DNA of 64,000 nucleotides from Natronobeatus ordinarius. Its GTDB lineage: Archaea; Halobacteriota; Halobacteria; Halobacteriales; Natrialbaceae. Below, one piece after another: positions 1,564 to 28,125 of this stretch. The notes below the pieces were generated by a model. The model ran no database searches. It saw nothing but the letters and a program-made list of their open reading frames with translations, and was not told where the DNA came from. Location of the stretch: contig NZ_CP101457.1 of assembly GCF_024362485.1 (NCBI RefSeq), positions 62,001-126,000 of the forward strand. Direction: 5' to 3'. The position numbers and the translations under genes were made by a program. Each line of letters begins with the position of its first letter. Position 1 is the first letter of the stretch.

Positions 1564-1593
1564 GTCACCCCGCACTCCTCCTGGGGGGAGAAC
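1564..1593 (-). promoter_or_regulatory. Conserved leader hairpin, copy 1
   Basis: On the gene strand it reads GTTGTTCTCCCCCCAGGAGG followed by AGTGCGGGG. It belongs to a ten-member family with the pattern GTTTTTCTGC-stem-GARG-GGGTGMGG-stem. It lies 5' of the decayed gene starting at 1528, with a spacing of 49 nt from the GAGTGCGG block to the ATG. Confidence 0.6.
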
Positions 1594-1597
1594 AACG

Positions 1598-1978
1598 CTA
1601 CACGTCGATCGACTCAAAGGAACTGAGATCCGCGTGGAGGACTTCGCCATCGCGGATGACGTACCGCTTTGCGAGGACTGGGAACCGACATTTCGTGAAT
1701 CCGGCTGTCTGGATGTCGAGTTCTTCGGTAGGCTCGAGATAATCGGCGAGTGTTCGGAGGAACTCGTGCGTCACAAGACCACCTTTGTAGTCGGGAAGGC
1801 CGTCTTCACGGGCTTCGTAGACCTCGAAGGCGTCCTATCCCCAGATGATGAGCTCTCCTTCTTCGTCCACTTCCCAATTCAGGGTCCCGAAGCAATGTGC
1901 TTCGCAGAGCTGGCGGACTGCCTGTGCATTCGTTACGATCGCACCGGCCGATGTCGTGGCTGCTTGGAGCGTTGCCAT
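1598..1978 (-). pseudogene. Small accessory protein gene with in-frame TAG
   Basis: From the ATG at 1978 it reads MATLQAATTSAGAIVTNAQA and on to GELIIWG (codon 47). Codon 48 (1835-1837) is TAG. The same frame then continues coherently as DAFEVYEAREDGLPDYKGGL and on to SSFESIDV, stopping with TAG at 1598. Composition and acidic character are the same on both sides, so this looks like one 126-codon gene with a single nonsense change, probably from a TAC or TAT Tyr codon. Function unknown. The leader hairpin is at 2003-2030, with 37 nt spacing. Confidence 0.7.
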
Positions 1979-2002
1979 TGTTAGTCCTCGGGGGTGCTTT
2001 CC

Positions 2003-2030
2003 TACCCCCGCACCCCTTCAGGGGAGTAAC
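2003..2030 (-). promoter_or_regulatory. Conserved leader hairpin, copy 2
   Basis: On the gene strand it reads GTTACTCCCCTGAAGGGGTG followed by CGGGGGTA. The stem is CCCC-TGAA-GGGG. The distance from GGGTGCGG to the ATG at 1978 is 37 nt, the modal value of the family. Confidence 0.65.
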
Positions 2031-2050
2031 AGACGCATCCTGAGACGAAC

Positions 2051-2080
2051 CAGGAAGAACCAGGAAGAACCAGGAAGAAC
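2051..2080. repeat. Three tandem copies of CAGGAAGAAC
   Basis: Three perfect head-to-tail 10 bp units, with a partial unit (GACGAAC) before them, lie directly 3' of the small gene ending at 2083. Purpose unknown; slippage expansion is the simplest explanation. Confidence 0.9.
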
Positions 2081-2082
2081 CG

Positions 2083-2289
2083 CTACTCGAGGATCGTGTA
2101 TCTGGATTCTACCTGAACGCCGTCGTCCTCTGTGGCAGGTGGTCGAGTGAGGTGACTCACCTGCTCCAGGAGCGTCACCGCTGTGTCGATTCGCTCTCGA
2201 TCAGAGGGATCCAATTCATCGATGTCAATATCGCTCAGGTTGCTGAGCGCGCGGTGCAGCCGGTACCCAGGTGTGTTTCGTGGGTCCAT
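2083..2289 (-). CDS. Small acidic accessory protein (68 aa)
   Basis: Begins MDPRNTPGYRLHRALSNLSD and is rich in Asp and Glu, with a heptad-like middle (IDTAVTLLEQVSHL) that could form one long helix. No recognised family. It has a leader hairpin (2294-2323), but the spacing is only 17 nt, shorter than in other members. It is the first gene in a row of three small minus-strand genes, the other two of which are decayed. Confidence 0.6.
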   Translation of the reverse strand: MDPRNTPGYRLHRALSNLSDIDIDELDPSDRERIDTAVTLLEQVSHLTRPPATEDDGVQVESRYTILE

Positions 2290-2293
2290 GTGT

Positions 2294-2323
2294 ACGCCTC
2301 CGCCGACTTCTGGCGCAGAAAAA
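2294..2323 (-). promoter_or_regulatory. Conserved leader hairpin, copy 3
   Basis: On the gene strand it reads GTTTTTCTGCGCCAGAAGTC followed by GGCGGAGGCGTA. The GTTTTTCTGCGCC block is identical to that of copy 9. It is unusually close to its start codon (2289). Confidence 0.65.
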
Positions 2324-2687
2324 CATCGCCGGGTCGTCAGCAGAGCATCTATAGCCTGACGAGGATCACGATTGAGTCACCCAGCACAGATCGATTCGTT
2401 ATCGAAGGAGGATGGATACGTTTCTTTGGTTACAGCGAAGGGGATGAGGCACAGTATGATGGTGCCATTCGTGTTCGGTTAAGAGCGCTAATCGATAGAC
2501 AGAGTCGACTTCGACAGAATCGTCATCCTTCCTGTCCAAAATCGAGTTCTCCGCGTATGGAGCCTCAGAGCAAGCGTTTTCGAACCCTCTGTATTGCCCG
2601 TTGAGGGGAGAAAGGGGCCTAACCGAACACGGATGATGGTGCAATCGAGTCCGCGGATTCAAGGTTTCTCTGCGTGAATCGTCAGCT
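2324..2687. other. Intergenic, no gene recognised
   Basis: No frame on either strand shows haloarchaeal coding character. The long minus-strand frame across 2399-2866 is rich in Ser, His and Arg and overlaps the better gene at 2688. The stretch is slightly AT-richer and probably holds the promoter of the plus-strand pair starting at 2688. Confidence 0.5.
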
Positions 2688-3047
2688 ATGACCGATGATT
2701 CAGAATCCTCCCCATCGTTTCTCTCGTCGCTTCCGAGCCAACCCATTACAGACGGCATCGTGAAGCAGATTGGTGAGAGCGACAACCTAAAAATTCGCGG
2801 AACCATGGGTTTTCCAGGCTCATCCCCCGGCACGATCGAAGCGTTCCTGCTGAATATGGAAGCCAAGACGCACGTAATCGTCTTTGATCCAGGCGCGGAA
2901 CAATGGCGCGTCTACAAATCCTTCAAAACCGAGGGGATGAGCCATCAAGAGATGGTCAATCGCGCGAGCGAACTCGCTAACGAGTGGTTCGCTGAAAGCC
3001 TCTCGGACCGCATCGCGGCCGCAGAAGAGACGGAGCCAGACACATGA
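2688..3047 (+). CDS. Conserved hypothetical protein (119 aa), first gene of a pair
   Basis: Begins MTDDSESSPSFLSSLPSQPI. The middle reads as alternating strands (LKIRGTMGF, THVIVFDPGAEQWRVYKSF) and the C-terminus is a helix (MVNRASELANEWFAESL). No family recognised. Its stop overlaps the next start in an ATGA arrangement, so the two are probably translationally coupled. Confidence 0.65.
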   Translation: MTDDSESSPSFLSSLPSQPITDGIVKQIGESDNLKIRGTMGFPGSSPGTIEAFLLNMEAKTHVIVFDPGAEQWRVYKSFKTEGMSHQEMVNRASELANEWFAESLSDRIAAAEETEPDT

Positions 3048-3538
3048 TCCTCCGCTACTACGCTGATGCGGACATCCGCGAGTGGCACGACCACGCGCTC
3101 CGGCTCTTGCGAACGCTGCACGACGAGCACGGCATCGCAGTCGAGATCGACCGGATCGACGAGCAGCACGGGCCGATCACGGACTTCCCCGGCGACGTAC
3201 GATACCCGACGCCCGAGGAGGTCTACGAACGCGACCTCAAACGCAACCGTGCTCTGAACCAGACTATCGACCAGACACCGTCAGCGGCGTTCAAACGCTA
3301 CGGGAAACTCGACATCGCTGGGAACGTCGCGGTCGTCGATGATGAGGGGACTGTCCAATGGGCCTCGACACTGCCGGGCTATGCTGACGGCTATCGGCCG
3401 GGTGCTGCGTCACAGACCGCGATGAACTTTCTGGAGGATATCGCCACCGCTCCGAGCAACCGTATCTGCGTCGAATGCCTCTCTCTGCTGGATGGCGACG
3501 AAAATTTCTGTCCGAACTGTGGCTACGAATTTCCATAG
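3044..3538 (+). CDS. Zinc-ribbon protein (164 aa)
   Basis: Begins MILRYYADADIREWHDHALR. The first ~115 residues have an alpha/beta pattern (RLLRTLHDEHGIAVEIDRID, then LDIAGNVAVVDDEGTVQWAS) that could be thioredoxin-like, though no CxxC is present there. The C-terminus is a zinc ribbon (CVECLSLLDGDENFCPNCG, about residues 143-161). It overlaps the preceding gene by four bases. Role unknown. Confidence 0.65.
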   Translation: MILRYYADADIREWHDHALRLLRTLHDEHGIAVEIDRIDEQHGPITDFPGDVRYPTPEEVYERDLKRNRALNQTIDQTPSAAFKRYGKLDIAGNVAVVDDEGTVQWASTLPGYADGYRPGAASQTAMNFLEDIATAPSNRICVECLSLLDGDENFCPNCGYEFP

Positions 3539-3664
3539 CGCAGTACGCTATTGGATCGACGACATTCAACGCCGACTGGCTGATGTCACACGTCCTAAGC
3601 ACACGAGAATGGGTAGCCTCTAACAGCTGATTTCACACCGTGAGAGACCTCTCCACCCCACCGA

Positions 3665-3707
3665 ATTAACCAACAATGAACGGCTTTGACACGCCTTGTT
3701 GGTTAAT
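3665..3707. repeat. Inverted repeat ATTAACCAACAA / TTGTTGGTTAAT
   Basis: Perfect 12 bp arms separated by 19 bases. It is one of three near-identical inverted repeats in the window (also 7205-7245 and 27580-27623), all sharing TTAACCAAC as the arm core. This copy lies downstream of the zinc-ribbon gene and upstream of the CcbP-like gene. Confidence 0.85.
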
Positions 3708-3818
3708 CTTGCCCAGCGACTCAGGCCCGGACTTCTGCGGTCACAATCGAGCAAGCTTACGATTGGTCGATGGATGGATCCGGCTGTCCAGCGTATCTTA
3801 CGAACAGAGTGCGTACTG

Positions 3819-4181
3819 ATGGGTATGCCACGAGTCGAGAGAGACGAAGAACGAGACGAACGCATCGAGATGCGGATCATCGTCGATACGTACAGTGCTG
3901 AAGAGCAGGCGATGGGCTGGCACGCGTATCTGGACGACACGATGGACTTTCCCTTCGAAGCACGGTGTGTCATCGAGCGAGCGGAATCGCCCCTGAATGT
4001 GGGCGAAACGGTACGCGTTATCGAAATGTCCCCGACTGAGCCAACGCTCAACCAGATGTTCGTAACGGTGGAGTGGATGGACAGAACACTTGGCGTGCCA
4101 TTAGAGCAATTAGAGGTCGTCGACGCCAGCAGTGACACGGAACAGGCGGTCGCAGACTGGCAGTACTGGCTCGACCGCTGA
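3819..4181 (+). CDS. CcbP-like calcium-binding family protein
   Basis: The body resembles the Calci_bind_CcbP family: AMGWHAYLDDTMDFPFEARC, then a strand block with VGETVRVIEM, a MFVTVEWMDRTLGVPLEQLE core and the terminal DWQYWLDR. CcbP from a cyanobacterium binds calcium; the archaeal role is unknown. The frame is open upstream to 3696, but that part lacks coding character and overlaps the inverted repeat, so I place the start at 3819 (or MPRVE at 3825). The N-terminus is charged (VERDEERDERIEMRI). Confidence 0.75.
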   Translation: MGMPRVERDEERDERIEMRIIVDTYSAEEQAMGWHAYLDDTMDFPFEARCVIERAESPLNVGETVRVIEMSPTEPTLNQMFVTVEWMDRTLGVPLEQLEVVDASSDTEQAVADWQYWLDR

Positions 4182-4305
4182 GAGTCATGCGTCCGTACTC
4201 GAACCACCCTCTCCAGACTCCCCAGAGACGGACAGTGCCACGTCTCACCGACCCCCGGCCAATCCACAGATTGAATCCGTCCGAGTTCATCCATTCTGAT
4301 ATTGA

Positions 4306-5706
4306 ATGCGACTCGAATTCGACGACGGCACGCTCCTGCTCCACGACGCTCCCGACGACACCCCGTATGCGGAGTGGGACGACCGCGTCGACGAGTACCG
4401 CGCCCAGCCGTATCGGTATCGACCTCTCCTCGAATGGGCGGGTGCTTGGACAGATGGAGACGAGCAAACAACGCTTCACGACGGTTTCGCTCACGCTCTC
4501 GAAGACACCGCTCGGGCCTACCCTGTCCTCGATCTCACACCTGCACTCCACATCGAACCGCGTGACTACCAACAGGCCGCGCTCGACGCCTGGATCGAGC
4601 ACGGACGGCGGGGGAGCGTCGTCCTCCCGACGGGAAGCGGGAAGACGTTCCTCGGGCTGCAGGCCATTGCCGACGCTGGCGTCAGTGCGCTGGTCGTCAC
4701 GCCGACAATCGACCTGATGAACCAGTGGCACGCCACGCTCACCAACGCCTTCGCCGACCAGCTCACACAGCCGATCGGCGTCCTCGGTGGCGGCAGCCAC
4801 GACGTCACAGCCATCACGGTCACGACCTACGACAGCGCCTATCGCTACGTCAACGAGTACGGCGATCAGTTCGGCCTGCTCGTCGTCGACGAGGAACACC
4901 ACCTGCCAGCCCCGACCTACCGGCAGATCCCCGAGATGATGATCGCACCGTATCGCCTCGGCCTCACGGCGACCTATGAGCGCCCCGATGGCAAGCACGA
5001 ACTCCTCGAGGATCTCCTTGGGCCGGTCGTCTATCGGGAGCACGTCGACGAACTCGCTGGGGAGTATCTCAGCGAGTACGAGACGATCCACATGTCGGTC
5101 GACCTCACAGCCGACGAGCGAGAGTCGTACGACGAGGAGTACCGGATCTATCGCGACTACGTCGACAGCCACGACTTCGATCTCTGGAAGGAGCGCGGCT
5201 ACGCAGAGTTCCTCAAGCGCACTTCCTACGACCCGCAGGGACGGCGAGCGCTCATCGCCAAGCAGCGTGCCGAGCGACTCGCCCGGACGGCGACGAAGAA
5301 ACTCGACACGCTCGACACTCTAATCAAACGCCATCACGACGACCGCGCCATCATCTTCACTGCGAACAACGACTTCGCCTACGAGATCTCCCAGGAGTTC
5401 ATCGTCCCCTGCATCACCCATCAGACCAAGACCGACGAACGCACCGAGATCCTGGAACGGTTCCGCACGGGCGACTATTCGATGCTCGCGACCTCCCAAG
5501 TTCTCGACGAAGGGATTGACGTCCCGGCGGCGAACGTCGGAATCATCCTCTCGGGAAGCGCCTCGAAACGGCAGTACGCCCAGCGACTCGGGCGAATCCT
5601 CCGGCCTACGGACGACCGCCAGCCAGCACGTCTGTACGAGATTATCGCTGAGGACACGATGGAGACGTACGTCTCTCAACGCCGTCGAGAGGGGGTGAAT
5701 GCGTAG
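4306..5706 (+). CDS. XPB/Rad25-like superfamily 2 DNA helicase
   Basis: 466 aa. After a ~75-residue N-terminal domain come the SF2 motifs: EPRDYQQAAL (Q-like region), LPTGSGKT (Walker A, GSGKT at 110-114), VVDEEHH (195-199, the DEAH-box variant), LGLTATYER (motif III region), LDEGIDVPAANVGII and QRLGRILRP (motif VI). Archaeal XPB unwinds DNA in repair and partners with Bax1. Here its stop codon shares one base with the start of a Bax1-like gene, the classic pairing. Confidence 0.9.
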   Translation: MRLEFDDGTLLLHDAPDDTPYAEWDDRVDEYRAQPYRYRPLLEWAGAWTDGDEQTTLHDGFAHALEDTARAYPVLDLTPALHIEPRDYQQAALDAWIEHGRRGSVVLPTGSGKTFLGLQAIADAGVSALVVTPTIDLMNQWHATLTNAFADQLTQPIGVLGGGSHDVTAITVTTYDSAYRYVNEYGDQFGLLVVDEEHHLPAPTYRQIPEMMIAPYRLGLTATYERPDGKHELLEDLLGPVVYREHVDELAGEYLSEYETIHMSVDLTADERESYDEEYRIYRDYVDSHDFDLWKERGYAEFLKRTSYDPQGRRALIAKQRAERLARTATKKLDTLDTLIKRHHDDRAIIFTANNDFAYEISQEFIVPCITHQTKTDERTEILERFRTGDYSMLATSQVLDEGIDVPAANVGIILSGSASKRQYAQRLGRILRPTDDRQPARLYEIIAEDTMETYVSQRRREGVNA

Positions 5707-7064
5707 TGCTGACCGCAAACTTCGCGCGGTCACGCACGACTGACGAGACGATTACACCGCTGTTCATCGATCCATCTGATGAGCGCTATCGTGAGACGGC
5801 ACGGGAACTCCTCCAACTGTTCGAAGTCCACCTCGACGGGCCGAGGGGCGATCTCGAAGCCGAGATTGACGAGCTGACTGTCGCGGATACCGACTACAAG
5901 ATCGTCCAGGGACTGGCGAAGCTCCTGAAAGACGAGTGCAAGTTCGAAGTCGTCGCGTCGGTCGATCCACGTGAGATTCGTCGGCGACTCTTCGAGAAAG
6001 CCAACGAGCGGTATCCTATTGTTCGCCAGCCGACGCTCGGTGAGGACACACAGAAGCTGGAAGTGTACAGTGGAGTGGCCGACGAACTCGGTATCTCGCT
6101 CGAAGACTGCTATCGTGGGATGTACGCCGACCTCGAGGACAACAAGCGGCTCGTCCGAATCGGCACGCGGACGGCCGACCGATACGAGAGGACCGGTGAT
6201 GCGTCGCCGTCGACGACGAATTTGACCGGCAGCAGTGCCGAGGAATACGAGCACACCGACCTCACCGTCGACTGGCTGCTGACTCGGTACAACCTCGCGC
6301 TCGCTCAGGCAGTCCTCTACGATGCGACTGAGATGCGGATTCGTGTCTGGGACCACTTCGGGACGGTGTTCAGCTACGTGAAGCTGTTCGGGCTGATGCA
6401 TCGCATCTATCCGATCGATGCCGACGGCGACCGCGTTGCGAGTACGGATCAGGCTTCGGGCTACGAGGCCGTGCTGGATGGCCCAGCGTCGCTGTTCTCG
6501 AAATCACAGAAGTACGGGATTCGCATGGCGAACTTCTTGCCAGCGTTACCTCTCTGTGAGCGGTGGGAGATGACCGCCGAGATTCTCATCGACGAAACAA
6601 CCAGCGAGACACGGCAGTTCACACTTGACCAGAGCGAAGGTCTCGATTCGCACTACAGCGGTGGTCAGCGGTTCGATAGTGACGTCGAGCGGACGCTCGC
6701 TCAGAAGTGGGAGCGAGCGAACACTGAGTGGGAACTCGTACGCGAGGACGACGTCTTTGACCTCGGGGCCGAGGTGATGATCCCCGACTTTGCAGTCGAG
6801 CACCCCGATGGACGTCGGGCGATTTTCGAAATTGTCGGCTTCTGGACGCCCGAGTATATAGAGTCAAAGCTAGCGAAGATCCGGCAGGTGGAGGCTGACA
6901 ACTTCATACTGGCTGTCTCAGAGCGACTGGATTGTGCAAATGAGGACTTCGGACGGACGGCCGACCGAGTACTCTGGTTCAAAACCGGCATTCACGTCTA
7001 TGATATGGTCGAATTAGTTGAAACAGTTGCTGCCTCGTCCGATACAACACCTGCTTCTAAGTGA
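5706..7064 (+). CDS. bax1: Bax1-like nuclease partner of XPB (DUF790)
   Basis: 452 aa from a GTG at 5706 overlapping the helicase stop. The N-terminus (LTANFARSRTTDETITPLF) and overall length fit the DUF790/Bax1 family. The C-terminal third has a nuclease-like core: MIPDFAVEHPDGRRAIFEIV, then GFWTPEYIESKLAKI, resembling a PD-(D/E)xK fold (D, E-x-V, K). Bax1 binds XPB and cuts DNA at forks or bubbles. The pair would act as a helicase-nuclease in repair or on incoming DNA. Confidence 0.85.
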   Translation: MLTANFARSRTTDETITPLFIDPSDERYRETARELLQLFEVHLDGPRGDLEAEIDELTVADTDYKIVQGLAKLLKDECKFEVVASVDPREIRRRLFEKANERYPIVRQPTLGEDTQKLEVYSGVADELGISLEDCYRGMYADLEDNKRLVRIGTRTADRYERTGDASPSTTNLTGSSAEEYEHTDLTVDWLLTRYNLALAQAVLYDATEMRIRVWDHFGTVFSYVKLFGLMHRIYPIDADGDRVASTDQASGYEAVLDGPASLFSKSQKYGIRMANFLPALPLCERWEMTAEILIDETTSETRQFTLDQSEGLDSHYSGGQRFDSDVERTLAQKWERANTEWELVREDDVFDLGAEVMIPDFAVEHPDGRRAIFEIVGFWTPEYIESKLAKIRQVEADNFILAVSERLDCANEDFGRTADRVLWFKTGIHVYDMVELVETVAASSDTTPASK

Positions 7065-7204
7065 GAATGCTCGGTGGCTTGGCGTCCCACAGTGCATTCC
7101 ATAGATGCGCTTGCGTGCGAATTTTCACTTGTGACATCAGAAGGACGTGGCTTTCTTCTCGAACTTCCGTAACGAGGGGTGCTTACTGGCAACGGTGGTG
7201 TGTT

Positions 7205-7245: not shown

Positions 7246-7276
7246 GAGAAGTTGAAGTCCGATTCGGCCACTGTCG

Positions 7277-10598: not shown

Positions 10599-11528
10599 TC
10601 ACACCGCGTTGAGTTCGTCTCTCCGGGCACGAACTGTCACAGCTGACATCCCTGCAGCATCCGCAACTCTCTGCTGTGTGAGTGAGCTTCCGTATTCCTG
10701 TGCAGCTTTGTAAATGCAGGCCGCCGCGACGCCACTCGGACGACACCCGTTTGAAATAGCAGTTTCTCGATGGTGCTTTGAGAGTGCCACTGCTCGACGC
10801 CGGGTGGCGTCTGAAATGTTAAGTTCCGACGCGAGACGGGGGATGAATTCGCTTGGTCGAACAGGCTGGGTCGGCAGTCCAAGTTCTGTATTCAGCGTCT
10901 TGTACGCATTTGCGACTCTCGATTGTTCGACGCGTGCTGCGTCGACGACGTCGTCGAGTAACCGTGAGTGGCCGTTACATCGACAGGCTCCGTAGATGCT
11001 TGCTGCCGCTATCGCCTCGATTGATCGGCCTCGAAGCAGATCTTCGGTTTGAGCGCTCCGGAACAGTTGACACGCCTGATCCCGAACCGAATCTGAGAGC
11101 TCGAGGACGCTCGCGATTCTTCGGACCTCACCCAGGCCGTGTGCGAGGTTTCGCTCGGCTTTCGACTGGAAGCGACCACGAGTCTGTTCACGCCGCATCC
11201 GGGATAGCTGCTGGCGCTTTCGCCCGGAAAGTTCGTTCCCGTTCGCATCTTTCCACCGACCGATTTCCGTCGACAGCCCTCGGTCGTGACGTGCCGCAGT
11301 CAGTGGAGCGCCCGTCCGCTTTCGCTGGTCCTGATCGTGAGTTCTCCATTCAGGACCGTGGTCGATTCGTTGTTCGTCAATAACGAGTCCACAGTTCTCG
11401 CAGACTGTTTCGACCGAGTTGGTAGTGACCCGGCCATTGCACTCGGGACATGAGTTCGTGCTGGAGTTTGTCTGGACGTCCTCGTCGAAGCCCGTTTCGT
11501 AGATGTCTCTGGTTGCCATTGTTCTCAT
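10599..11528 (-). CDS. tfb: Transcription initiation factor IIB (TFB)
   Basis: 309 aa. The N-terminal zinc ribbon CPECNGRVTTNSVETVCENC is followed by the B-reader/linker region (GPEWRTHDQDQRKRTGAP). Then come two cyclin-like repeats: SIEAIAAASIYGACRCNGHS in the first and RPSGVAAACIYKAAQEYGSS in the second, the latter ending with a recognition-helix region (TQQRVADAAGMSAVTVRARR). TFB recruits RNA polymerase to TBP-bound promoters. Haloarchaea use many TFB paralogues for alternative programmes, so an element-borne copy could redirect transcription. The start at 11528 gives 41 nt to the leader hairpin; MATRD at 11519 is an alternative. Confidence 0.9.
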   Translation of the reverse strand: MRTMATRDIYETGFDEDVQTNSSTNSCPECNGRVTTNSVETVCENCGLVIDEQRIDHGPEWRTHDQDQRKRTGAPLTAARHDRGLSTEIGRWKDANGNELSGRKRQQLSRMRREQTRGRFQSKAERNLAHGLGEVRRIASVLELSDSVRDQACQLFRSAQTEDLLRGRSIEAIAAASIYGACRCNGHSRLLDDVVDAARVEQSRVANAYKTLNTELGLPTQPVRPSEFIPRLASELNISDATRRRAVALSKHHRETAISNGCRPSGVAAACIYKAAQEYGSSLTQQRVADAAGMSAVTVRARRDELNAV

Positions 11529-11552: not shown

Positions 11553-11586
11553 CGGTGAGCCCCTCACCCATTGAGGGGGAGAATAA
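11553..11586 (-). promoter_or_regulatory. Conserved leader hairpin, copy 4 (tfb)
   Basis: On the gene strand it reads GTTTATTCTCCCCCTCAATG followed by GGTGAGGGGCTC. The stem is CCCCTCA / TGAGGGG. The spacing from GGGTGAGG to ATG 11528 is 41 nt. Finding the element before a general transcription factor ties this leader family to regulation of the accessory region. Confidence 0.65.
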
Positions 11587-17859: not shown

Positions 17860-18090
17860 TCAGTAACGGTCTGTGCCTTGTTTACCGCACCTGTGCTGCT
17901 GAATTCGTTCCGGCAATCCGACTTTCCCACAGATCGGACACTCCTGTAACGGCGTTGGCGGCAGGTCGTCCCAGACCTCCAATGCGGCCGTCAATTGTGC
18001 CTCGACGGCGGGAGAGGTGGTCGCTCGCTTCGCTTCTTGAAGATGAATTCGGAGTCGCTCACGGGTTGTGAGAGTGGTTTCCTTGGACAT
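17860..18090 (-). CDS. Small zinc-finger protein (76 aa)
   Basis: Begins MSKETTLTTRERLRIHLQEA, a helical N-terminus. The C-terminus carries CPICGKVGLPERIQQHRC, a C2HC-type finger. It is probably a small regulator. The gene is convergent with the STAND gene (16 bp apart) and has the leader hairpin at 18117-18146 with 38 nt spacing. Confidence 0.7.
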   Translation of the reverse strand: MSKETTLTTRERLRIHLQEAKRATTSPAVEAQLTAALEVWDDLPPTPLQECPICGKVGLPERIQQHRCGKQGTDRY

Positions 18091-18116: not shown

Positions 18117-18146
18117 TGCCCTCCGCCCACTCGGAGGGCAGAAAAA
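18117..18146 (-). promoter_or_regulatory. Conserved leader hairpin, copy 5
   Basis: On the gene strand, after GTTTTTC it reads TGCCCTCCG-AGTGGG-CGGAGGGCA, a perfect 9 bp stem with a 6-base loop and the strongest stem of the family. The loop-proximal GGGCGGAG is 38 nt from ATG 18090. Confidence 0.7.
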
Positions 18147-18224: not shown

Positions 18225-19199
18225 TCAAGGGGACTGGCTCGTATCTGGTCTAAGTGGGGAGACTCGTTCCCACAGGCGATGATGCTGAACACAAACCGTC
18301 ACGAGATTCTCAAGCCGATTGGCCCGCTCGAAGTCCACATCGTCGTCCCTGTCCCCGAATGAACTGAGCGGCTGGATATGGTGAACGTGCAGCCCCTTCC
18401 CGAACGCCTCCCGATGGGCAGTCTGTGACCAGTCACACCCCGGCGTTTGACATACGTAGCTGTCTCGCTCAAGCGCCTTCGCCCGCTGTGCCTTCCAGTT
18501 CGGCCCGTAGTATCGTCGCTCATCCTTTGAGTCCGCTTTCCAGTTGCCGTTGGCAGGGCCTGATGGACGACCAACTGGCTCGTGGCCAGCAGATCGAACT
18601 GCGGCCTGCCAGCCGTCCCATCGATCAAAATAGCACCGACAAGAAAACCGACCGTACTCGTCCATATCAGTCGCTGTTGGGACCTTCCCCAGTACCTCGA
18701 CAAGCGTCCGGATTTCATCGAGGAGAACTTCGTCAGGAATCCCTATCTCGCGATGGGGCTCAAAACCAGCAGCCTGTAATGCGTCGTTCCAACTCCCAAA
18801 CGTGTCCTGAGCCAGGCTCACGGAATATTCTCCCATTTCACGATGCTCGGTCGATGTTGGTGGTCTGCCAAGCTTCTCTCTGACAGCTCTGATATCTTGT
18901 TTGACCTCCGCTGGGGTGATGTCGTATCTGTTATTTGGCATCAGATCGATTGACCGTAATGCATCTCCCCATGAGCCAAATCGCTGTTTCACACAGGCCG
19001 CAGAATAAGACCCTTGTTCATCCATCATGTTAGTGGTCGGTGTCCTTCCAGAAACCTCCGCTAGTCGCTTGATTTCCGCCTGTAACTCTTCACGGCTGAT
19101 TTTGAGCTGATGCGCTCGTTTGTGGCCGCCCTTTGCTCCTGGTGTTTCGAACTCGGCTCCACAAATCTCACACGTATACACTCGTTTCTCTGATTCCAT
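18225..19199 (-). CDS. HNH endonuclease with zinc finger and three homing-endonuclease-associated repeats
   Basis: 324 aa. An N-terminal C2H2-type finger (CEICGAEF...GGHKRAH) is followed by three repeats of the homing-endonuclease-associated type: FGSWGDALRS, FGSWNDALQAAGF and WDGWQAAVRSAGHEPVG, each after a GR/GKxPT motif. The C-terminal HNH nuclease has CQTPGCDW, HVHHIQPLSSFGD, and NRLENLVTVCVQHHRLWE. The repeats probably read DNA and the HNH domain cuts. It may be a homing or restriction-like nuclease in the cassette between R1 and R2. The leader hairpin is at 19228-19256. Confidence 0.85.
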   Translation of the reverse strand: MESEKRVYTCEICGAEFETPGAKGGHKRAHQLKISREELQAEIKRLAEVSGRTPTTNMMDEQGSYSAACVKQRFGSWGDALRSIDLMPNNRYDITPAEVKQDIRAVREKLGRPPTSTEHREMGEYSVSLAQDTFGSWNDALQAAGFEPHREIGIPDEVLLDEIRTLVEVLGKVPTATDMDEYGRFSCRCYFDRWDGWQAAVRSAGHEPVGRPSGPANGNWKADSKDERRYYGPNWKAQRAKALERDSYVCQTPGCDWSQTAHREAFGKGLHVHHIQPLSSFGDRDDDVDFERANRLENLVTVCVQHHRLWERVSPLRPDTSQSP

Positions 19200-19227: not shown

Positions 19228-19256
19228 GCGCCTCACCGCTCTCGGCGCAGAAAAAT
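19228..19256 (-). promoter_or_regulatory. Conserved leader hairpin, copy 6 (HNH gene)
   Basis: On the gene strand it reads ATTTTTCTGCGCCGAGAGCG followed by GTGAGGCGC, pairing GCGCC with GGCGC. The spacing to ATG 19199 is about 39 nt. Confidence 0.65.
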
Positions 19257-22130: not shown

Positions 22131-22141
22131 GGGCAATTGAG

Positions 22142-22158: not shown

Positions 22159-22196
22159 GAATCAATAAAGAGTGTTGCGGTCAATCTATCTCGACT

Positions 22197-22490
22197 AGGT
22201 GCGAGCGACGCGGCGGGTGGCAGCGGTGAGCGGGGCGGGCCGCAGAGAAACACGGTTCAACCGGACTTGACATGCAGTGACTCAGCCGATAGCCTGGCGG
22301 GCTCAGAAAGGGCAAGGCTGACTCGGTCGTCCCTCGACCCCGTAAACACCGAGTGAAAAGAGGCGCGCAGCGGGAGCAAGCGAGACGGAGTCTCGAGTGG
22401 TCGAGGGATACCGAGCAATGGGAGAGCAAACCTCTTCCGAGCTAACGGGCGGCGTCGCCGCCCGAGAACGGCCGAGGGCTTTCTATCTGT
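22197..22490. repeat. Long imperfect direct repeat, right copy
   Basis: Diverged, longer copy of 20739-20965, in the same orientation. It includes an extra GGGCGGCG-TCG-CCGCCC hairpin (about 22446-22464) before the shared GGCCGAGGGCTTTC end. The two copies enclose the PIN/HTH pair. Confidence 0.75.
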
Positions 22491-22686
22491 TCTCGGCCAC
22501 CGCCTGCAGTCTCGACGTAAGCATTATCCTGCACCGACGCGAAAGTTATCTATGCACCACACACCGCCGGTGCAACAGGTGAACGTGCGGACGATGAGCG
22601 CTTGCTCTGTTCTTTCATAGGTGGTCGCGGCGCCGACGGGTGTATCGCCTTCTCATCGAGCAGCGACGCCGCTTTCACCGATACAA

Positions 22687-23763
22687 ATGCAAACCACCGA
22701 GTACGAACTCCGCGATCGAATCGATCAGCTCAGAAACTACCGTGGCGAGGGCACCGAACTCATCACCGTAGCCGTTCCGCCAGACAAATCACTCCATGCA
22801 GTCCGCGAGCGCATCGATCGCGAATATGCACAGGCTGCGAACATCAAATCTGATCAGACACGAACCCACGTCCAGGATGCTCTTGGACGCATCCGACGCC
22901 TTCTGCAAGCGTACGAAGAAACGCCACAAAGCGGCCTCATCATCTACGCTGGTGTCGTCGACGGTGAGCTGCACGACGCCGTCTTCGACGATCTCGACGT
23001 CCCCGTCGACGTCTCACTGTACCGCTGTGCGGCTGAATTCGAGACCGCCCCCGTCGAGCAGGCGCTCTCCCCGTCAGAGGTGTACGGTCTGGTTGTCCTC
23101 GAACGGGGCCGTGCCGCTCTCGGCCGCCTCGCCGGCAAACGCATCGTTTCCATCCGGACGTTCGAGAGCCAGGTGATGGGGAAATCCCGTGCGGGCGGTC
23201 AGAGTGCGCAGCGTTTCGAACGTGAGCGGGATCGCCAGAAACACGAGTTCTTCGAGAAGGTTGCCGACGCTGCCGAACAGACATTCCTCGACGAGCCTAC
23301 TGTCGATGGCATTCTCCTCGGCGGCACGACGATTACCGTCGACGAGTTCCAGCAGGGTGGCTATCTCCACTACGAGTTGCGGGACCGCATACTGGGCGTG
23401 TATCCGATTGAGTACGCGACTAAACAGGGCCTCTCGCAGCTCGTTGCGCGTTCCGAGGACGTACTGTCTGATGCTGAGCGCCGACGGGAACGAGAGTTTC
23501 TCGATCGGTTCTTCACGGCGCTGGGGCAGCGTGAAGATGTCGCCTACGGAGCTGAGGAAACGCGAACCGCCCTCGACTACGGGGCGGTCGACGTCCTCAT
23601 CGTTTCTGACGCACGACCATCAGCAGAGATTCGTGAATTGGAGGCAGTGACGACCGACCAAGGCGGTGAGTGTCTCGTTGTGTCGACTGACACAGACCGA
23701 GGTGCCCAGTTCGATACTGCATTCGGGGGTCTTGGAGCGCTCCTCCGGTTTCCGATCAACTAA
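22687..23763 (+). CDS. aRF1-like peptide release factor paralogue
   Basis: 358 aa from ATG 22687. It retains the codon-recognition NIKS motif (ANIKSDQTRTHVQDAL, NIKS at 52-55) and the YxCxxxF motif (YRCAAEF, 112-118). It also retains the GGQ peptidyl-tRNA hydrolysis motif (AGGQSAQRF, GGQ at 170-172). The C-domain matches aRF1 (AFGGLGALLRF) but lacks the Cys-rich mini-domain, so it is ~50 residues shorter than housekeeping aRF1. It could end translation at stop codons or rescue stalled ribosomes, for example after cutting by the adjacent PIN RNase. Upstream sequence to 22621 is open but not coding-like. Confidence 0.85.
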   Translation: MQTTEYELRDRIDQLRNYRGEGTELITVAVPPDKSLHAVRERIDREYAQAANIKSDQTRTHVQDALGRIRRLLQAYEETPQSGLIIYAGVVDGELHDAVFDDLDVPVDVSLYRCAAEFETAPVEQALSPSEVYGLVVLERGRAALGRLAGKRIVSIRTFESQVMGKSRAGGQSAQRFERERDRQKHEFFEKVADAAEQTFLDEPTVDGILLGGTTITVDEFQQGGYLHYELRDRILGVYPIEYATKQGLSQLVARSEDVLSDAERRREREFLDRFFTALGQREDVAYGAEETRTALDYGAVDVLIVSDARPSAEIRELEAVTTDQGGECLVVSTDTDRGAQFDTAFGGLGALLRFPIN

Positions 23764-24028
23764 GCCGATTAGCATTGGATTCCATAGCTGTCGTAGCGGC
23801 CCAGTCTACGGGTCTGGAGGCAGTCATCGATCGCGCAGACGCACTCTCAAGCGTGAGGGAAGAGCCGTAGGCGGGGCAGTCCATAGTCGGCGTACGCGTC
23901 GTGCTAGTGTAAGGATGAGGGAGCAACGGGACAGTCTCACATCCGAGTCCACCTCGGTTAGAGGACGAGGACGGACGGGGCCCCAGAGAACGGGAGGCGA
24001 CAGTGAAGATTTCAGAGCACCTCTGGCG

Positions 24029-24226
24029 TCATCGGTCGAGCACCTCGACGTCGGGATTCATCCCGGCTGGACCAGCGACCGCTTTCGCCCGCTCGAGTTC
24101 GCGGAGTTCTCTCTGGGCCTGTCGTTCGAGGGCAACTGTCCGCCATCGGCGTTCGATTCTCCGTTCGTCGTCGATGTCGTCCTCGATCGTGAAGCGCTTG
24201 CCTCGATGATCAATCTGCTCGAGCAT
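24029..24226 (-). CDS. Small charged protein (65 aa), last gene of a three-gene unit
   Basis: Begins MLEQIDHRGKRFTIEDDIDD, then a long Arg/Glu-rich helix (RQAQRELRELERAKAVAG). Its start overlaps the stop of the zinc-finger gene (TGATG), so translation is coupled. Function unknown. Confidence 0.6.
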   Translation of the reverse strand: MLEQIDHRGKRFTIEDDIDDERRIERRWRTVALERQAQRELRELERAKAVAGPAGMNPDVEVLDR

Positions 24227-24381
24227 CAGTACGCATCCTCCTGGGCTGCGTCTCGAGCGTCTGCCTGCAGATGCTCATAGCGGACTTCACAGCTGTCCGA
24301 ACAGAAGCGGCCAGCGTACCCTGCCCGATCGCGGGTGAGTCTCGTACAGGTCGGTAGCCGACACTCGTTATACCTGGTCAT
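24226..24381 (-). CDS. Small zinc-finger protein (51 aa)
   Basis: Begins MTRYNECRLPTCTRLTRDRA and continues FCSDSCEVRYEHL, giving a C-x4-C...C-x3-C zinc site like a treble-clef or MYM-type finger. The ATG at 24381 overlaps the stop of an upstream 25-residue ORF (ATGA). An in-frame start at 24408 exists but would ignore that coupling. Confidence 0.65.
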   Translation of the reverse strand: MTRYNECRLPTCTRLTRDRAGYAGRFCSDSCEVRYEHLQADARDAAQEDAY

Positions 24382-24455
24382 CTGGCAATACCTCGCTTCA
24401 GGGGCCATGTCGTCTCAGCGTCTGGCGACGCTGGTGCTACGTTGTTTGTTCGCAT
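24378..24455 (-). CDS. 25-residue leader ORF
   Basis: MRTNNVAPASPDAETTWPLK then RGIAR and a TGA overlapping the next ATG. Its start is 37 nt from the GGGTGCGG of the leader hairpin at 24479-24508, the modal spacing of the family, which favours it as the first translated ORF of the transcript. It may be a coupling or attenuation leader. Confidence 0.45.
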   Translation of the reverse strand: MRTNNVAPASPDAETTWPLKRGIAR

Positions 24456-24478
24456 GGGTTTCTGCGGTGGCTTCAGTC

Positions 24479-24508
24479 GAACCCCCGCACCCCTCTCGGG
24501 GGCGACAA
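24479..24508 (-). promoter_or_regulatory. Conserved leader hairpin, copy 7
   Basis: On the gene strand it reads GTTTGTCGCCCCCGAGAGGG followed by GTGCGGGGGTTC. CCCC-GAGA-GGGG forms the stem-loop. It is 37 nt from ATG 24455. Confidence 0.65.
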
Positions 24509-24542
24509 ACTATCTCGAGCGGACGACCGGTTTAACCCACAG

Positions 24543-25103
24543 TCACCGGTTGAATGTCCCATCCGGGGCGGGAGTGATCCCAGTTCGTATCTCGAGATCG
24601 ACGCGTCTGAGATGCTTGCAACCACCGGAGGGCTGGCGTTGTTCACAATCCGGACAAGTACACGTCTCCGCCTCGACGTCAACCATGTAGGTGTTCCCAC
24701 TCCCGCTGACGACCTCGTAGGTTGGCCCCACGCTGGCGAAACGAACGTCCATATCCTCGCTCAGCGCGCGACGGGTTCGTGGCTCATCGACAGAGTAGCC
24801 GCCTGCCTCGAGTGCAGTCGGTGGCTGGGTGTTCTCACAAGGGTTGGTGAATTCCTCTCGACGATTGCGTTCTTGGCCGCATTTTCTGCAGCGCCAGTAG
24901 CGTGTGCGGTATTCATAGCCTTCTGTGAGGTCGATCTCATACGGTGATGGCTCAGTTCCGGGAAGCCACTCATCAATAGCTATGAGTTCATGTCCGTTGA
25001 GGTGGGCAACGTCACCTGGATAACTGCGATCCCGATCGCTCGTGACCGTCTGGGATTGGTCGTCTCGATGCGATTCGCTCTGGAGTGACTGATCTGTACT
25101 CAT
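24543..25103 (-). CDS. SWIM zinc-finger protein (186 aa)
   Basis: The C-terminal SWIM motif CTCPDCEQRQPSGGCKHLRR (CxC...CxH) follows a strand-rich segment (GNTYMVDVEAETCTC). An additional CRKCGQERNRREEFTNPC zinc site is near residue 75. SWIM domains bind DNA or proteins in transposases, recombination factors and SWIM-ATPases. The start at 25103 (MSTDQSLQ) gives the standard 36 nt spacing to the leader; a start at 25124 would abut the hairpin. Confidence 0.75.
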   Translation of the reverse strand: MSTDQSLQSESHRDDQSQTVTSDRDRSYPGDVAHLNGHELIAIDEWLPGTEPSPYEIDLTEGYEYRTRYWRCRKCGQERNRREEFTNPCENTQPPTALEAGGYSVDEPRTRRALSEDMDVRFASVGPTYEVVSGSGNTYMVDVEAETCTCPDCEQRQPSGGCKHLRRVDLEIRTGITPAPDGTFNR

Positions 25104-25127
25104 TAGTGATCTCGAGGCACACATGGT

Positions 25128-25155
25128 CGCGCCTCACCCTTCAGGCGCGAAAAAC
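25128..25155 (-). promoter_or_regulatory. Conserved leader hairpin, copy 8 (SWIM gene)
   Basis: On the gene strand it reads GTTTTTCGCGCCTGAAGGGT followed by GAGGCGCGACC. The stem is CGCGCC / GGCGCG. The GGGTGAGG is 36 nt from ATG 25103. Confidence 0.7.
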
Positions 25156-25221
25156 GAGTTCAGGTGGGTGATCGAGAGGGAAAACAAGGGCTGACTGGAA
25201 AGGAGGTCCTTCATTCGAAAG

Positions 25222-25301
25222 TACTCTTCGAGGAGGAATGCGACCGAGAGGAAGTCGCAGATGACGTCTCCGCTGGCTCAGCTTGATGAGTGTGGTATAG
25301 C
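25222..25301 (-). pseudogene. Remnant of the 5' end of a PIN-associated HTH gene
   Basis: About 75 bp match the first codons of the intact gene at 21528-22130 (shared GACGTCATC, CGACTTCCTCTCGGTCGC, CTCCTCGA on the minus strand). The start is ATA instead of ATG and an in-frame stop follows. Only the beginning of the gene remains, so a second PIN/HTH locus was probably lost here. Confidence 0.6.
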
Positions 25302-25342
25302 GCTTCTTGACTACGTTATCATGGAAATCCAGCGATTTGGGG

Positions 25343-25678
25343 CTATTCCGCTGGCACCGCTACGAGGTGTTCCTCGAGGTCGCGCGTCCAGTACGTGGCG
25401 GGCCCACTGGGGCTACAGCAAGCACAAAGCTGTAGCGGCCCCTCGAGATGGCCGAGTTCCACGCGGAACCGGGTGAGCGCTGCGAGCGTGTCAACGACGA
25501 GTCCACACCCGTCGCAAGCGTGGTGATCGCGCTCATCGGGATCGGGTTGCGCCTGAATTGCACAGTCGACACAGATCTGGTGGGTGACCCGCTCTTCTTT
25601 CCCCCAGGTGTGTGCTTCACCAGCGTCAGCACCGGGCAGCGCCTCACAGAAGGCACACCCGGAGAGTGTCTGCTGCAT
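25343..25678 (-). CDS. Cysteine-rich zinc protein (111 aa)
   Basis: Begins MQQTLSGCAFCEALPGADAG. Several CxxC pairs (CAFC, CVDC, CDGC, CACC) suggest two or three zinc sites. Its ATG overlaps the stop of the upstream gene (TGATG), so the two are coupled. Function unknown. Confidence 0.65.
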   Translation of the reverse strand: MQQTLSGCAFCEALPGADAGEAHTWGKEERVTHQICVDCAIQAQPDPDERDHHACDGCGLVVDTLAALTRFRVELGHLEGPLQLCACCSPSGPATYWTRDLEEHLVAVPAE

Positions 25679-25968
25679 CAGGCCGTCTCCTCGCTGGCGT
25701 CGCAAGCGGCTGTCCAGCCTTTGTGGAAGACAGCAAGCTGGGTAATCGATTCGAACGCTTCACTACTGGGTTCGTGGACGAGCACGCGCTTTTCAGCGAT
25801 TGGGATGACGATACCCGCGTCGACGAGCTCATTGACCAAGTTACGGGCCTCCGAATCGTCCATGTCCGCCGTCCCAACGCGGGCGGCGTCTTGATCTTGG
25901 GCGAGGAGTTCGGCCTCGAACTGTTCGTAGTCGGCACTCGTGTCGTCGTTGAGTTCGGGTTTAGACAT
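25678..25968 (-). CDS. Small acidic accessory protein (96 aa)
   Basis: Begins MSKPELNDDTSADYEQFEAE. Contains ARNLVNELVDAGIVIPIAEK, similar in pattern to a small winged helix. The start at 25968 sits 38 nt from the leader element. First gene of a coupled pair with the Cys-rich protein. Confidence 0.6.
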   Translation of the reverse strand: MSKPELNDDTSADYEQFEAELLAQDQDAARVGTADMDDSEARNLVNELVDAGIVIPIAEKRVLVHEPSSEAFESITQLAVFHKGWTAACDASEETA

Positions 25969-25993
25969 GAGAATTCCATCGAGCACGCTAACG

Positions 25994-26022
25994 CGCGCTC
26001 CACGCCTTCTGGCGCAGAAAAA
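25994..26022 (-). promoter_or_regulatory. Conserved leader hairpin, copy 9
   Basis: On the gene strand it reads GTTTTTCTGCGCCAGAAGGC followed by GTGGAGCGCG. The spacing to ATG 25968 is 38 nt. Confidence 0.65.
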
Positions 26023-26243
26023 CAGGCTATCGCGAGTGTCCTGTTCGTCCTACACGATTCATGGCCTGACCGTCGATGACGTCACAAACCAAGCCAGAAC
26101 ACGTCGTGATGGTTGTTTGGTCATAGGGCGTCGTCACTGGATAGTAAAACAGCCGTCGATGAGCATGTCATAGAATCAATTCATATTTCCAGAGTGTCAT
26201 AGAGTGCTTCTCACAGGATTCGAAAACGAACAGTACAGGGCCT

Positions 26244-26504
26244 CTATTGAGTACACTTAGCCGGCACTAAATCCCGCTGCCGGAATGAAACGGGTATCTG
26301 TTCATCCGTCTCTACGTCTCGAAGAGTGTACGAATAGGTATCTATGCCCCGTCCAGTTTCTTTACCGAGGTCATCTGTGAGAATTTCAACAACTTCACAA
26401 ACCACACCGTGATACCGGGAATCAGGATCGTCAGCTCCGATGTAGATCTGCACCCGTTCGCCGACAGAGTACGGCTCGCTTGCTGGTTGTGGGATGTCTT
26501 CCAT
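26244..26504 (-). CDS. Conserved haloarchaeal beta-barrel-like protein (86 aa)
   Basis: Begins MEDIPQPASEPYSVGERVQI and continues YHGVVCEVVEILTDDLGKET, then PVSFRQRDLVPA. A strand-rich, SH3-like pattern (GERVQIYIG, HGVVCEVVEI, SYTLRDVE). I recognise it as a widespread small haloarchaeal protein of unknown function. Monocistronic. Confidence 0.7.
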   Translation of the reverse strand: MEDIPQPASEPYSVGERVQIYIGADDPDSRYHGVVCEVVEILTDDLGKETGRGIDTYSYTLRDVETDEQIPVSFRQRDLVPAKCTQ

Positions 26505-26627
26505 TTATTTGTGATGAGTCGACAAGCTCTATCAGTCCATCGCTACGTTCGCATCCTTCCTGGCCGCTGTGAACGATTTTATGACACGCTAGTCGATAGC
26601 TAACGAGGCGCTAAGAATCCTGTTGAG

Positions 26628-26819
26628 TCACTCGTCTTCAAGCGCTGCGTAGATCTCTGCGTGGCGGCGTCCGTCAAGTTTCCCCATCTCGAGGGCGATC
26701 TCGTGACGTTCGGCGTCGCTCTCGGCCGCCTGATACCGCTCGTACAGTCGGCGGACTTCTTCGTCGACCGTTGCCGAGGAATCGGTGCTGGACGCCATCT
26801 CTGTATTGAACGTACTCAT
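26628..26819 (-). CDS. Small helical protein downstream of doc (63 aa)
   Basis: Begins MSTFNTEMASSTDSSATVDE. One long amphipathic stretch follows (EVRRLYERYQAAESDAERHE, IALEMGKLDGRR). It lies 12 nt after the Doc stop and is probably cotranscribed. It could be an accessory or second antitoxin. Confidence 0.55.
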   Translation of the reverse strand: MSTFNTEMASSTDSSATVDEEVRRLYERYQAAESDAERHEIALEMGKLDGRRHAEIYAALEDE

Positions 26820-26831
26820 TGTGTCCCTTTA

Positions 26832-27230
26832 TCAGTTGCGACGAGCACACGCTCGGAAGTAAATCACTGCGGTTTCAGTGTCGACAGCGGCTTCATCGGT
26901 CGCAAAGCGGTGCAGTAAGGCCCGAATTTCGTCGCCGTAGTCGAACGTGTGTCCGTTCAGCATGTAGAAGACAACCACCGTTCGGAGTGCAGTCCGCTTG
27001 TTCCCGTCGACGAAGGGATGATCTGCAACGAGAAGACGCATCAGATGCACCGCTTTTTCATGCAGTGTCTGTGGAACCTCTCCAAAGTATCCTTCAGAGA
27101 CGTACTGCACTGCAGATTCGATTGCGTCCTCCGATCGAATTCCGGGTTCTGTGGCGTCACCTTCTTCAACGATCTGCTCGTGGAGATCGAGAACGAGCTC
27201 GACCGAAGGATACGCGACGTCGTCAGTCAC
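26832..27230 (-). CDS. doc: Doc/Fic-family toxin (death-on-curing)
   Basis: 132 aa. Carries the Fic/Doc signature HPFVDGNKRTALRTVVVF (HxFxxGNKRTA), with PSVELVLDLHEQIVEEG at the N-terminus as in Doc. Doc proteins phosphorylate EF-Tu in bacteria; the archaeal target is not established. Full length for the family, with the catalytic His, the phosphate-binding GNK and the Arg all present. Downstream of the likely antitoxin gene. Confidence 0.85.
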   Translation of the reverse strand: MTDDVAYPSVELVLDLHEQIVEEGDATEPGIRSEDAIESAVQYVSEGYFGEVPQTLHEKAVHLMRLLVADHPFVDGNKRTALRTVVVFYMLNGHTFDYGDEIRALLHRFATDEAAVDTETAVIYFRACARRN

Positions 27231-27278
27231 ATTCGAGACTCTCGCGCGCTAGCCAATAGTCGTTTCTTCCTTGCAGCG

Positions 27279-27488
27279 TCACTCGCCGTACGTATCTTTC
27301 TTGGCGGTCGGTACTGGCGTGTTGTTGGCGGGCACGTTCGTAGCGTGCTCTTCCTCGCGGGCAGTCGCCCAATCGGCAAGATCACTGTAGACGTCGTCGA
27401 GTGTCCAGTCGTCGCTTGTTTCGACATCGTCACCGCGAAACGCGTCCTTGACCGAGGAAACATCATCTGGAGACTCGCTGTTGGACAT
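27279..27488 (-). CDS. Likely Doc antitoxin (69 aa)
   Basis: Begins MSNSESPDDVSSVKDAFRGD. It is acidic, with a disordered C-terminus (EEEHATNVPANNTPVPTAKK). It is placed directly upstream of doc, where the antitoxin normally sits. The frame extends to 27542, but the ATG at 27488 gives the coding-like part. The family is not certain. Confidence 0.55.
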   Translation of the reverse strand: MSNSESPDDVSSVKDAFRGDDVETSDDWTLDDVYSDLADWATAREEEHATNVPANNTPVPTAKKDTYGE

Positions 27489-27579
27489 ACTCGTTCTTGC
27501 GTGGCTGTCGATGTAGGCCTTGCTTCGAGGAATCGTTCCCACTGTAGTGCAGACTGGAATGCCTCCATCATCAACTAGA

Positions 27580-27623
27580 CTTAACCAACAACAGGCGTGG
27601 TAATTGGGTTCGTGTTGGTTAAG
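27580..27623. repeat. Inverted repeat CTTAACCAACA / TGTTGGTTAAG
   Basis: Perfect 11 bp arms, 22-base spacer. Third copy of the TTAACCAAC/GTTGGTTAA element. It lies between the doc locus promoter and the 3' end of the gene at 27627. Confidence 0.85.
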
Positions 27624-27626
27624 AAT

Positions 27627-28070
27627 CTACTTTTGAACTCGAAGTTCCCGAACTGGTTTCACCTGGAATCTATCTTGAGCGGTGACGACGTCATTCTGAC
27701 CTACCTCATCGACCAGTGACGACCGCTGTGAGAGGCGATTGACCAGCTCGTCGCGAACTGCTTTGCGGCTAACTGTTGCTTCGTGCCAACCGAGTCGTTC
27801 GTCGAGATACCGCTTCTTGAATTCCTCACCGACGTCGTCGACGGCGATGAACTGTGTTCGCTTCACTCCTGCAACACTAGTCGAGACGAACTCCGCACCA
27901 ACTTCTTCGTGGGTGAGTTCGACGAGTGCACACTCGACGAGTGAGACGATGGCAGTCGGACTTCTGGTATGTGGGAGCGTCAGCTCGAGATCTGCCCACG
28001 GTTCTTCGCTCGGTTGTTTAGTTTGCTCACCAGGTGGTCGTGATCGCTGTTGCTCGTGTTCTGAAGACAT
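27627..28070 (-). CDS. Hypothetical accessory protein (147 aa)
   Basis: Begins MSSEHEQQRSRPPGEQTKQP, a disordered polar N-terminus. A folded part follows (IVSLVECALVELTHEEVGAE, GVKRTQFIAVDDVGEEFKKR), ending in strands (VVTAQDRFQVKPVRELRVQ). The start at 28070 is supported by 36 nt spacing to the leader. No family recognised. Confidence 0.6.
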   Translation of the reverse strand: MSSEHEQQRSRPPGEQTKQPSEEPWADLELTLPHTRSPTAIVSLVECALVELTHEEVGAEFVSTSVAGVKRTQFIAVDDVGEEFKKRYLDERLGWHEATVSRKAVRDELVNRLSQRSSLVDEVGQNDVVTAQDRFQVKPVRELRVQK

Positions 28071-28093
28071 GGTTGTTGAGTGGGCGCTCACTG

Positions 28094-28125
28094 CGCCTCC
28101 TCACCCCTCCTGGGGGTGAGAAACC
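28094..28125 (-). promoter_or_regulatory. Conserved leader hairpin, copy 10
   Basis: On the gene strand it reads GGTTTCTCACCCCCAGGAGG followed by GGTGAGGAGGCG. The stem CTCACCCC-CAGG-AGGGGTGAG is nearly perfect. GGGTGAGG is 36 nt from ATG 28070. Confidence 0.65.

Follow-up and report, generated by a model that had tools for sequence, protein, structure and literature searches.

Hairpins before plasmid accessory genes

The window analysed here, a 64,000-base stretch, comprises bases 62001-126000 of NZ_CP101457.1, a 133,578-base haloarchaeal plasmid contig of Natronobeatus ordinarius. Its minus strand contains ten copies of a hairpin of about 30 nucleotides (nt), which we list with the gene or open reading frame (ORF) behind each (window positions; lengths in amino acids, aa). 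The stem covaries across unrelated genes. Judging from the sequences compared, the hairpin is most likely an undescribed, RNA-based control element that switches a whole set of plasmid genes together.

Hairpin copy 1: 1564..1593, minus strand, before a short DUF6735 gene (1238-1528)
Hairpin copy 2: 2003..2030, minus strand, before a short ORF (contig 63835-63978)
Hairpin copy 3: 2294..2323, minus strand, before a 68-aa ORF (2083-2289)
Hairpin copy 4: 11553..11586, minus strand, before a gene for transcription factor B (TFB, TFIIB family; 10599-11519)
Hairpin copy 5: 18117..18146, minus strand, before an ORF of 76 aa (17860-18090; putative zinc motif, no Pfam match)
Hairpin copy 6: 19228..19256, minus strand, before an HNH_repeat gene with a sub-threshold HNH match (18225-19199)
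Hairpin copy 7: 24479..24508, minus strand; the nearest ATG opens no 40-aa ORF, and a 60-aa ORF begins 68 nt on
Hairpin copy 8: 25128..25155, minus strand, before an ORF (24543-25103) grouped with SWIM-like family 8
Hairpin copy 9: 25994..26022, minus strand, before an ORF of family 12 (within 25678-25986)
Hairpin copy 10: 28094..28125, minus strand, before a 147-aa ORF (27627-28070)

The gene behind copy 7 has perhaps decayed, and the ORF behind copy 8 itself has no Pfam match at E≤0.01. The DUF6735 gene behind copy 1 encodes 96 aa, matching positions 1-72 of the 204-position profile. A length of 220 aa is found in 30 of the 37 family members, and the gene is probably truncated on this plasmid.

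A preliminary description of this DNA had proposed the ten hairpins, and they read as it claimed. A weight matrix trained on them scores all ten higher than any other site in the window (the weakest at 10.9 bits, the best other match at 10.1, eight copies above 25 bits). A covariance model built from 49 copies on several plasmids, applied with 150 of 633 first-look candidates going on to full scoring, lists 23 matches on the contig at E≤5 and 20 at E≤0.1. All 23 lie on the minus strand between 20.9 and 90.1 kb, and those inside the window are exactly the ten copies. Among the matches listed, the window thus has no further copy outside its left 28 kb, as described, but the family extends leftward beyond it, to contig position 20.9 kb. 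The near-constant distance to the ATG holds for most window copies (mostly about 20-25 nt, counted from where the model match ends, with exceptions of 1 and 33) but not for larger gene families.

Anatomy and covariation of the stem

In the gene-strand consensus of 162 distinct elements, a T-run (positions 0-5) is followed by a 5' arm, a loop NRAGGGGYG and a 3' arm, with strong conservation in the T-run and at loop positions 16 and 18-22. The 5' arm and a distal GGNGC arm form an outer stem around the loop, mostly of 4-9 bp with a loop of mostly 7-14 nt. Arm pairs include GCGCCGG/CCGGCGC, ACGCCGTC/GACGGCGT and TGCCCTCC/GGAGGGCA. A smaller inner stem with a GARG loop, the fold originally described, pairs the 5' arm with the proximal GGGG instead.

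We exchanged 5' halves between elements and measured the pairing that was lost. Kinship among elements inflates pooled tests of this kind, and hence swaps were made with one element per family and within families. With one element from each of 41 families, the longest outer-stem run is 5.16 bp and drops to 3.56 bp on swapping (mean z 8.8). For 299 elements swapped only within their 17 orthologue families, it drops from 5.05 to 4.73 bp, and none of 300 shuffles attains the observed value. When half-swaps are scored by register, the loss of pairing peaks at a single register (z 7.3; others at most 2.6). The outer stem therefore keeps pairing while its bases change, both across unrelated genes and within orthologues. 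This is the covarying stem in homologues expected of an RNA leader, and the preliminary description had named its absence from homologous loci as one observation that would count against it.

The inner stem can form, and single-sequence folding favors it in four of the ten window copies, but the best covariation belongs to the outer stem. For the inner stem, swapping gives a z of 1.0 when each family contributes one element; in the within-family swaps, its observed value is attained by 0 of 300 shuffles when the mixed family 0 is included and by 6 of 300 when that family is left out. The small-loop stem is thus the less well supported, and may serve as an alternative fold.

Distribution and association with conjugation

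The element is common in haloarchaea. Across 72 loci (1.51 Mb) a weight matrix finds 456 matches, against two in block-shuffled sequence; 60 of these loci were chosen for strong matches, so that density is biased and strand is not, and some come from plasmids also present in PLSDB. On the majority strand of their own locus lie 450 of the 456. Among matches listed for sampled genomes, with stricter filters that make genome-wide copy numbers lower bounds, a match at E≤0.01 occurs in 107 of 145 Halobacteria, and 82 reach at least three. In the rest of the phylum, 19 of 163 genomes have any match and one has at least three. We counted the element as present from three matches because single ones at E≤0.01 occur in those 19 non-haloarchaeal genomes. 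The scan of haloarchaeal genomes that had been suggested as a check thus finds the family widespread. A strict pattern applied to one genome per species over 84,980 species matched 57 stretches, all recognised as haloarchaea, and one strict pattern gave no match in IMG/VR.

Rfam release 15 has no match at family gathering thresholds in the window or in five further loci; at E≤3, window positions 1-30000 give one match, an unrelated snoRNA. We recognised no earlier description of the hairpin or its close relatives in the literature searched, the coverage of which excludes subscription papers and preprints. The main text of one report of 104 RNA candidates (PMC2864571) contains no word beginning 'Halo'.

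The chromosome (genome G000) yields 15 listed covariance-model matches, mostly weak, with the three best at 3.54-3.63 Mb. Five minus-strand matches, three of them at E<0.04, are clustered at 3.54 and 3.63 Mb (L121, L136). The sole TrbL_3 match of this genome sits on the plasmid and not on the chromosome; the chromosomal cluster may be the decayed remains of a plasmid relative that integrated there. Three plasmid segments contain element-like matches on the opposite strand (TTTTAGCCCGGAACGGGCGCGGGCGG; L012:30949, L014:24330 and L015:24331, each on the plus strand), which may be false or a diverged type.

The genes behind the elements are unrelated, as had been noted: 435 elements precede 41 protein clusters, 17 with at least five members and 16 singletons (gene calls outside annotated plasmids come from a codon-bias caller). 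The largest cluster, with 74 members, looks mixed. Pfam scans of 29 plasmid proteins in all gave, behind elements, an ArdC N-terminal domain, DUF6166, DUF6610, DUF6735, TFIIB and the homing-associated HNH_repeat, together with a sub-threshold SWIM match. Three annotated related segments contain mercury reductase and P-type ATPase genes as cargo, and there no element stands immediately before them.

The elements are associated with genes for conjugation. The plasmid encodes a predicted transfer region:

Transfer region: 38819-47706, minus strand, PriS-like, HerA/DUF87-like, VirB4/TraG-like and TrbL_3 (VirB6-like) genes (Pfam)

No hairpin falls within it among the covariance-model matches listed. 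The PriS-like gene (DNA primase small subunit; 38819-39703) lies beside the HerA/DUF87-like gene, and its product is possibly a conjugative primase. In the genome survey, at least three elements are found in 60 of 70 TrbL_3-bearing genomes and in 22 of 75 without TrbL_3 (Fisher p about 5e-12). Among 150 elements listed from the survey, 103 share a contig with a full-length TrbL_3, five of them more than 200 kb away. The remaining 98 comprise 91 on the TrbL_3 strand and seven on the opposite strand, these on three contigs (four of seven elements on a 526-kb contig of G065, two of two on a 1.3-Mb contig of G138 and one of five on contig C2 of G003). In linear coordinates 66 of the 98 are downstream of TrbL_3 and 32 upstream, although many of the contigs are possibly circular. 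The plasmid thus combines an ArdC N-terminal domain gene, of anti-restriction type, with a VirB4/TraG and TrbL_3 transfer region, and having predicted anti-restriction-type genes next to the transfer region is the arrangement of an establishment regulon. DNA similar to window positions 1500-2700 occurs in 94 PLSDB records, none covering 80% of the query; the five relatives inspected are all haloarchaeal and typed MPF_T and non-mobilizable.

The plasmid contig (C2) also contains a second motif, an inverted repeat TTAACCAAC-N23/24-GTTGGTTAA with nine sites, for example at window positions 3666, 7206 and 27581. Its half-sites number 292 in 1.486 Mb of element-bearing loci, against none in 280 kb of the chromosome of this genome, and 285 of 290 are intergenic. 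A partner with at most two mismatches exists for 265 of 289, and among 135 exact pairs 122 have a spacer of 23 or 24. Of 432 hairpins, 77 have a half-site no more than 130 nt upstream. From its layout, this motif looks like the operator of a plasmid-wide regulator.

Promoter context and mode of action

Of 161 distinct elements, a single one falls within a predicted gene. Spacing to the start codon spans about 4-63 nt among the larger gene families: family 6 has 5 nt in 26 of its 28 members, family 11 has 21 nt in all 13, family 3 mostly 43-46 nt and family 1 mostly 52-63 nt, and the spacing differs by at least 6 nt within families 4, 5, 7 and 8.

Promoter-like boxes depend on gene context. A TATA box at fixed spacing upstream of the hairpin gives no peak over all copies, and a difference emerged after the copies were split by upstream gene. 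An AT-rich box is present upstream in 47% of the 36 elements with a divergent upstream gene (control 22%) and in 38% of those more than 150 nt behind a co-directional gene (control 18%). For the 51 of 161 elements less than 60 nt behind a co-directional gene the figure is 8% (control stretch 2%), although the sequence before these copies is mostly coding and hence lower in AT regardless. The T-run is equally marked in both settings (4.44 T in 6 after a divergent gene, 4.53 after a close, co-directional one), in keeping with the earlier statement that it is not a terminator of the downstream genes. Between 45 and 15 nt before the start codon, a TATA-like box occurs in 8% of 98 element genes, against 42% of 159 sampled chromosomal genes with a peak at -30, a contrast of reduced weight since this stretch overlaps the GC-rich hairpin. 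Such boxes being rare between hairpin and start codon, RNA synthesis most likely begins no further downstream than the hairpin, which may itself be the start site.

We consider it somewhat better than an even chance that the hairpin is an RNA-level element read by a common factor, given its selected structure, its orientation with the genes, its placement both behind likely promoters and between genes, and its varying distance to the start codon. The hairpin would be transcribed, and would sit in the 5' leader or intercistronic spacer of plasmid accessory ('establishment') genes. One trans-acting factor, encoded by plasmid or host, would recognise the U-run together with the loop at each copy, and in this way raise or silence in concert many genes and operons that have promoters of their own, plausibly on entry into a new host. 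Since families differ in their gap to the start codon, such a factor would more likely act on mRNA processing, stability or elongation than by directly covering the ribosome site. The shared 5' untranslated regulator first suggested agrees with this as far as one element with selected base pairing before unrelated genes is concerned, and its transcription is probable from the positions of the promoter boxes.

Besides the two cautions on box counts given above, several observations weigh against this reading. In a nearly ungapped MAFFT alignment, column counts favor the inner stem: it is 69.4% paired, a value reached in 1 of 500 shuffles (0 of 500 for the covariation score), against 58.2% and 17 of 500 for the outer stem (10 of 500 for the covariation score; higher after a one-position slide). 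A three-base-loop variant of the inner stem is less favorable than the small-loop stem. Pooled swaps also raise the inner stem slightly (4.00 against 3.74, standard deviation 0.06). We give more weight to the swap tests because varying loop length harms column counts. Single-sequence folding beats mononucleotide shuffles moderately (mean z -1.9). In the stem, A.C mismatches are avoided somewhat more than G.T (42 where 87 are expected, against 45 where 68 are expected), which is suggestive of RNA, but the contrast is not significant (about 1.5 standard errors) and fits a hairpin of RNA or of single-stranded DNA. AT boxes are in no clear excess before copies that follow a co-directional gene by 60-150 nt (37%, control 32%). 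No trans-acting factor, origin of transfer (oriT) or relaxase was identified, and no computation aimed at the factor or oriT was run.

The hairpin may instead work as single-stranded DNA, with the transferred strand folding in the recipient and polymerase starting at the hairpin. We think this, the boldest of the rival readings, unlikely, and the specific claim that the hairpins are DNA promoters or initiation sites active on the single strand by which an archaeal conjugative element enters a shade less probable; if true, such a system would extend beyond bacteria and their phages. It would account for copies on one strand and in one region before ArdC-like and other accessory genes, and for the little intergenic room left for an ordinary promoter at 51 of 161 copies. 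The covarying stem with its conserved purine-rich loop is reminiscent of N4 promoters, and the plasmid encodes an OB-fold protein (Pfam scan) besides the PriS-like protein of the transfer region. Archaeal RNA polymerase, however, requires a TATA box and B recognition element, and the GC-rich hairpin has neither. AT-rich boxes are rare in or after it, whereas the Frpo duplex contains the promoter boxes of its host, and where the upstream gene is divergent, promoter-like AT boxes precede the copies at variable distance. An N4-type polymerase did not turn up in the 29 proteins scanned, although no systematic search for one was made. About equally doubtful is an intercistronic processing or stabilising hairpin, where an endonuclease cuts the U-run and the hairpin guards the new 5' end, giving separate mRNAs. 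The U-run immediately 5' of the stem, the occurrence of one kind of element between genes and behind promoters and the family-specific gap all suit it, but processing by itself does not require the conserved GGGGYG loop, and we know of no nuclease with such a U-run cleavage site.

An operator for one regulator, or a promoter-proximal site in double-stranded DNA, had also been suggested, and the inverted-repeat layout near gene starts and the separate operator-like repeat on the same plasmids speak for it. We consider it improbable: the arms differ between sites across and within families while pairing is kept, 450 of 456 matches are oriented with the locus strand, and the element is present where promoter room is small. 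The translational switch of the preliminary description, with a Shine-Dalgarno or standby site displayed in the loop, has very little in its favor beyond the resemblance of GGGGYG to part of the haloarchaeal Shine-Dalgarno sequence. The loop has G in 93% and A in 4% where pairing to the anti-Shine-Dalgarno sequence favors A, and C in 19% where U is needed. The gap of about 4-63 nt is neither fixed nor uniformly short, and a separate Shine-Dalgarno-like word stands beside the start in 30 of 103 element genes (2, 9 and 13 of 103 in shifted control windows). Least credible is a structured recombination site flanking gene cassettes, like attC. A same-strand hairpin before many single genes, of constant stem shape and gene-specific sequence, would fit such a site, but these hairpins are 5' of the genes and no recombinase is linked to them.

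Known systems offer partial parallels. The EGeRS1 and EGeRS2 sequences of pLS20-family conjugative plasmids are repeated upstream of establishment operons, including ardC, and resemble the hairpin in preceding accessory genes within one part of a conjugative plasmid; EGeRS1 resembles it also in having no established mechanism and no strong promoter before ardC (PMC8708921). EGeRS1 is bacterial, 400-600 bp long with multiple inverted repeats and has five pLS20 copies (PMC8708921); the hairpin is archaeal, about 30 nt long with a covarying stem and 23 listed matches on the plasmid. Frpo/ssi of F-like plasmids are single-stranded promoters, Frpo with -35 and -10 boxes in its duplex (PMC11541004). 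They resemble the hairpin as folded DNA on one strand before the anti-defence genes of the leading region, whereas the plasmid hairpin is short, GC-rich and without a promoter box. N4 early-promoter hairpins are small, with a conserved loop, stand before several early genes and have stems whose non-conserved bases are free if paired, but they need a dedicated virion RNA polymerase (PMC4496689). The repeats of halovirus HF2 are also intergenic sequences repeated on a haloarchaeal mobile element; they are promoters with TATA boxes (PMC8707807), while the plasmid hairpin is GC-rich and lies partly downstream of likely promoters.

If the hairpin is an RNA-level element read by a common factor, haloarchaea would have a common, overlooked regulatory code before 41 protein clusters. 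DUF6166, DUF6610, DUF6735 and other uncharacterised genes could then be proposed as establishment genes. The element would mark out which genes form the establishment regulon of archaeal conjugative plasmids, and would help to show how these plasmids gain control of a new host.

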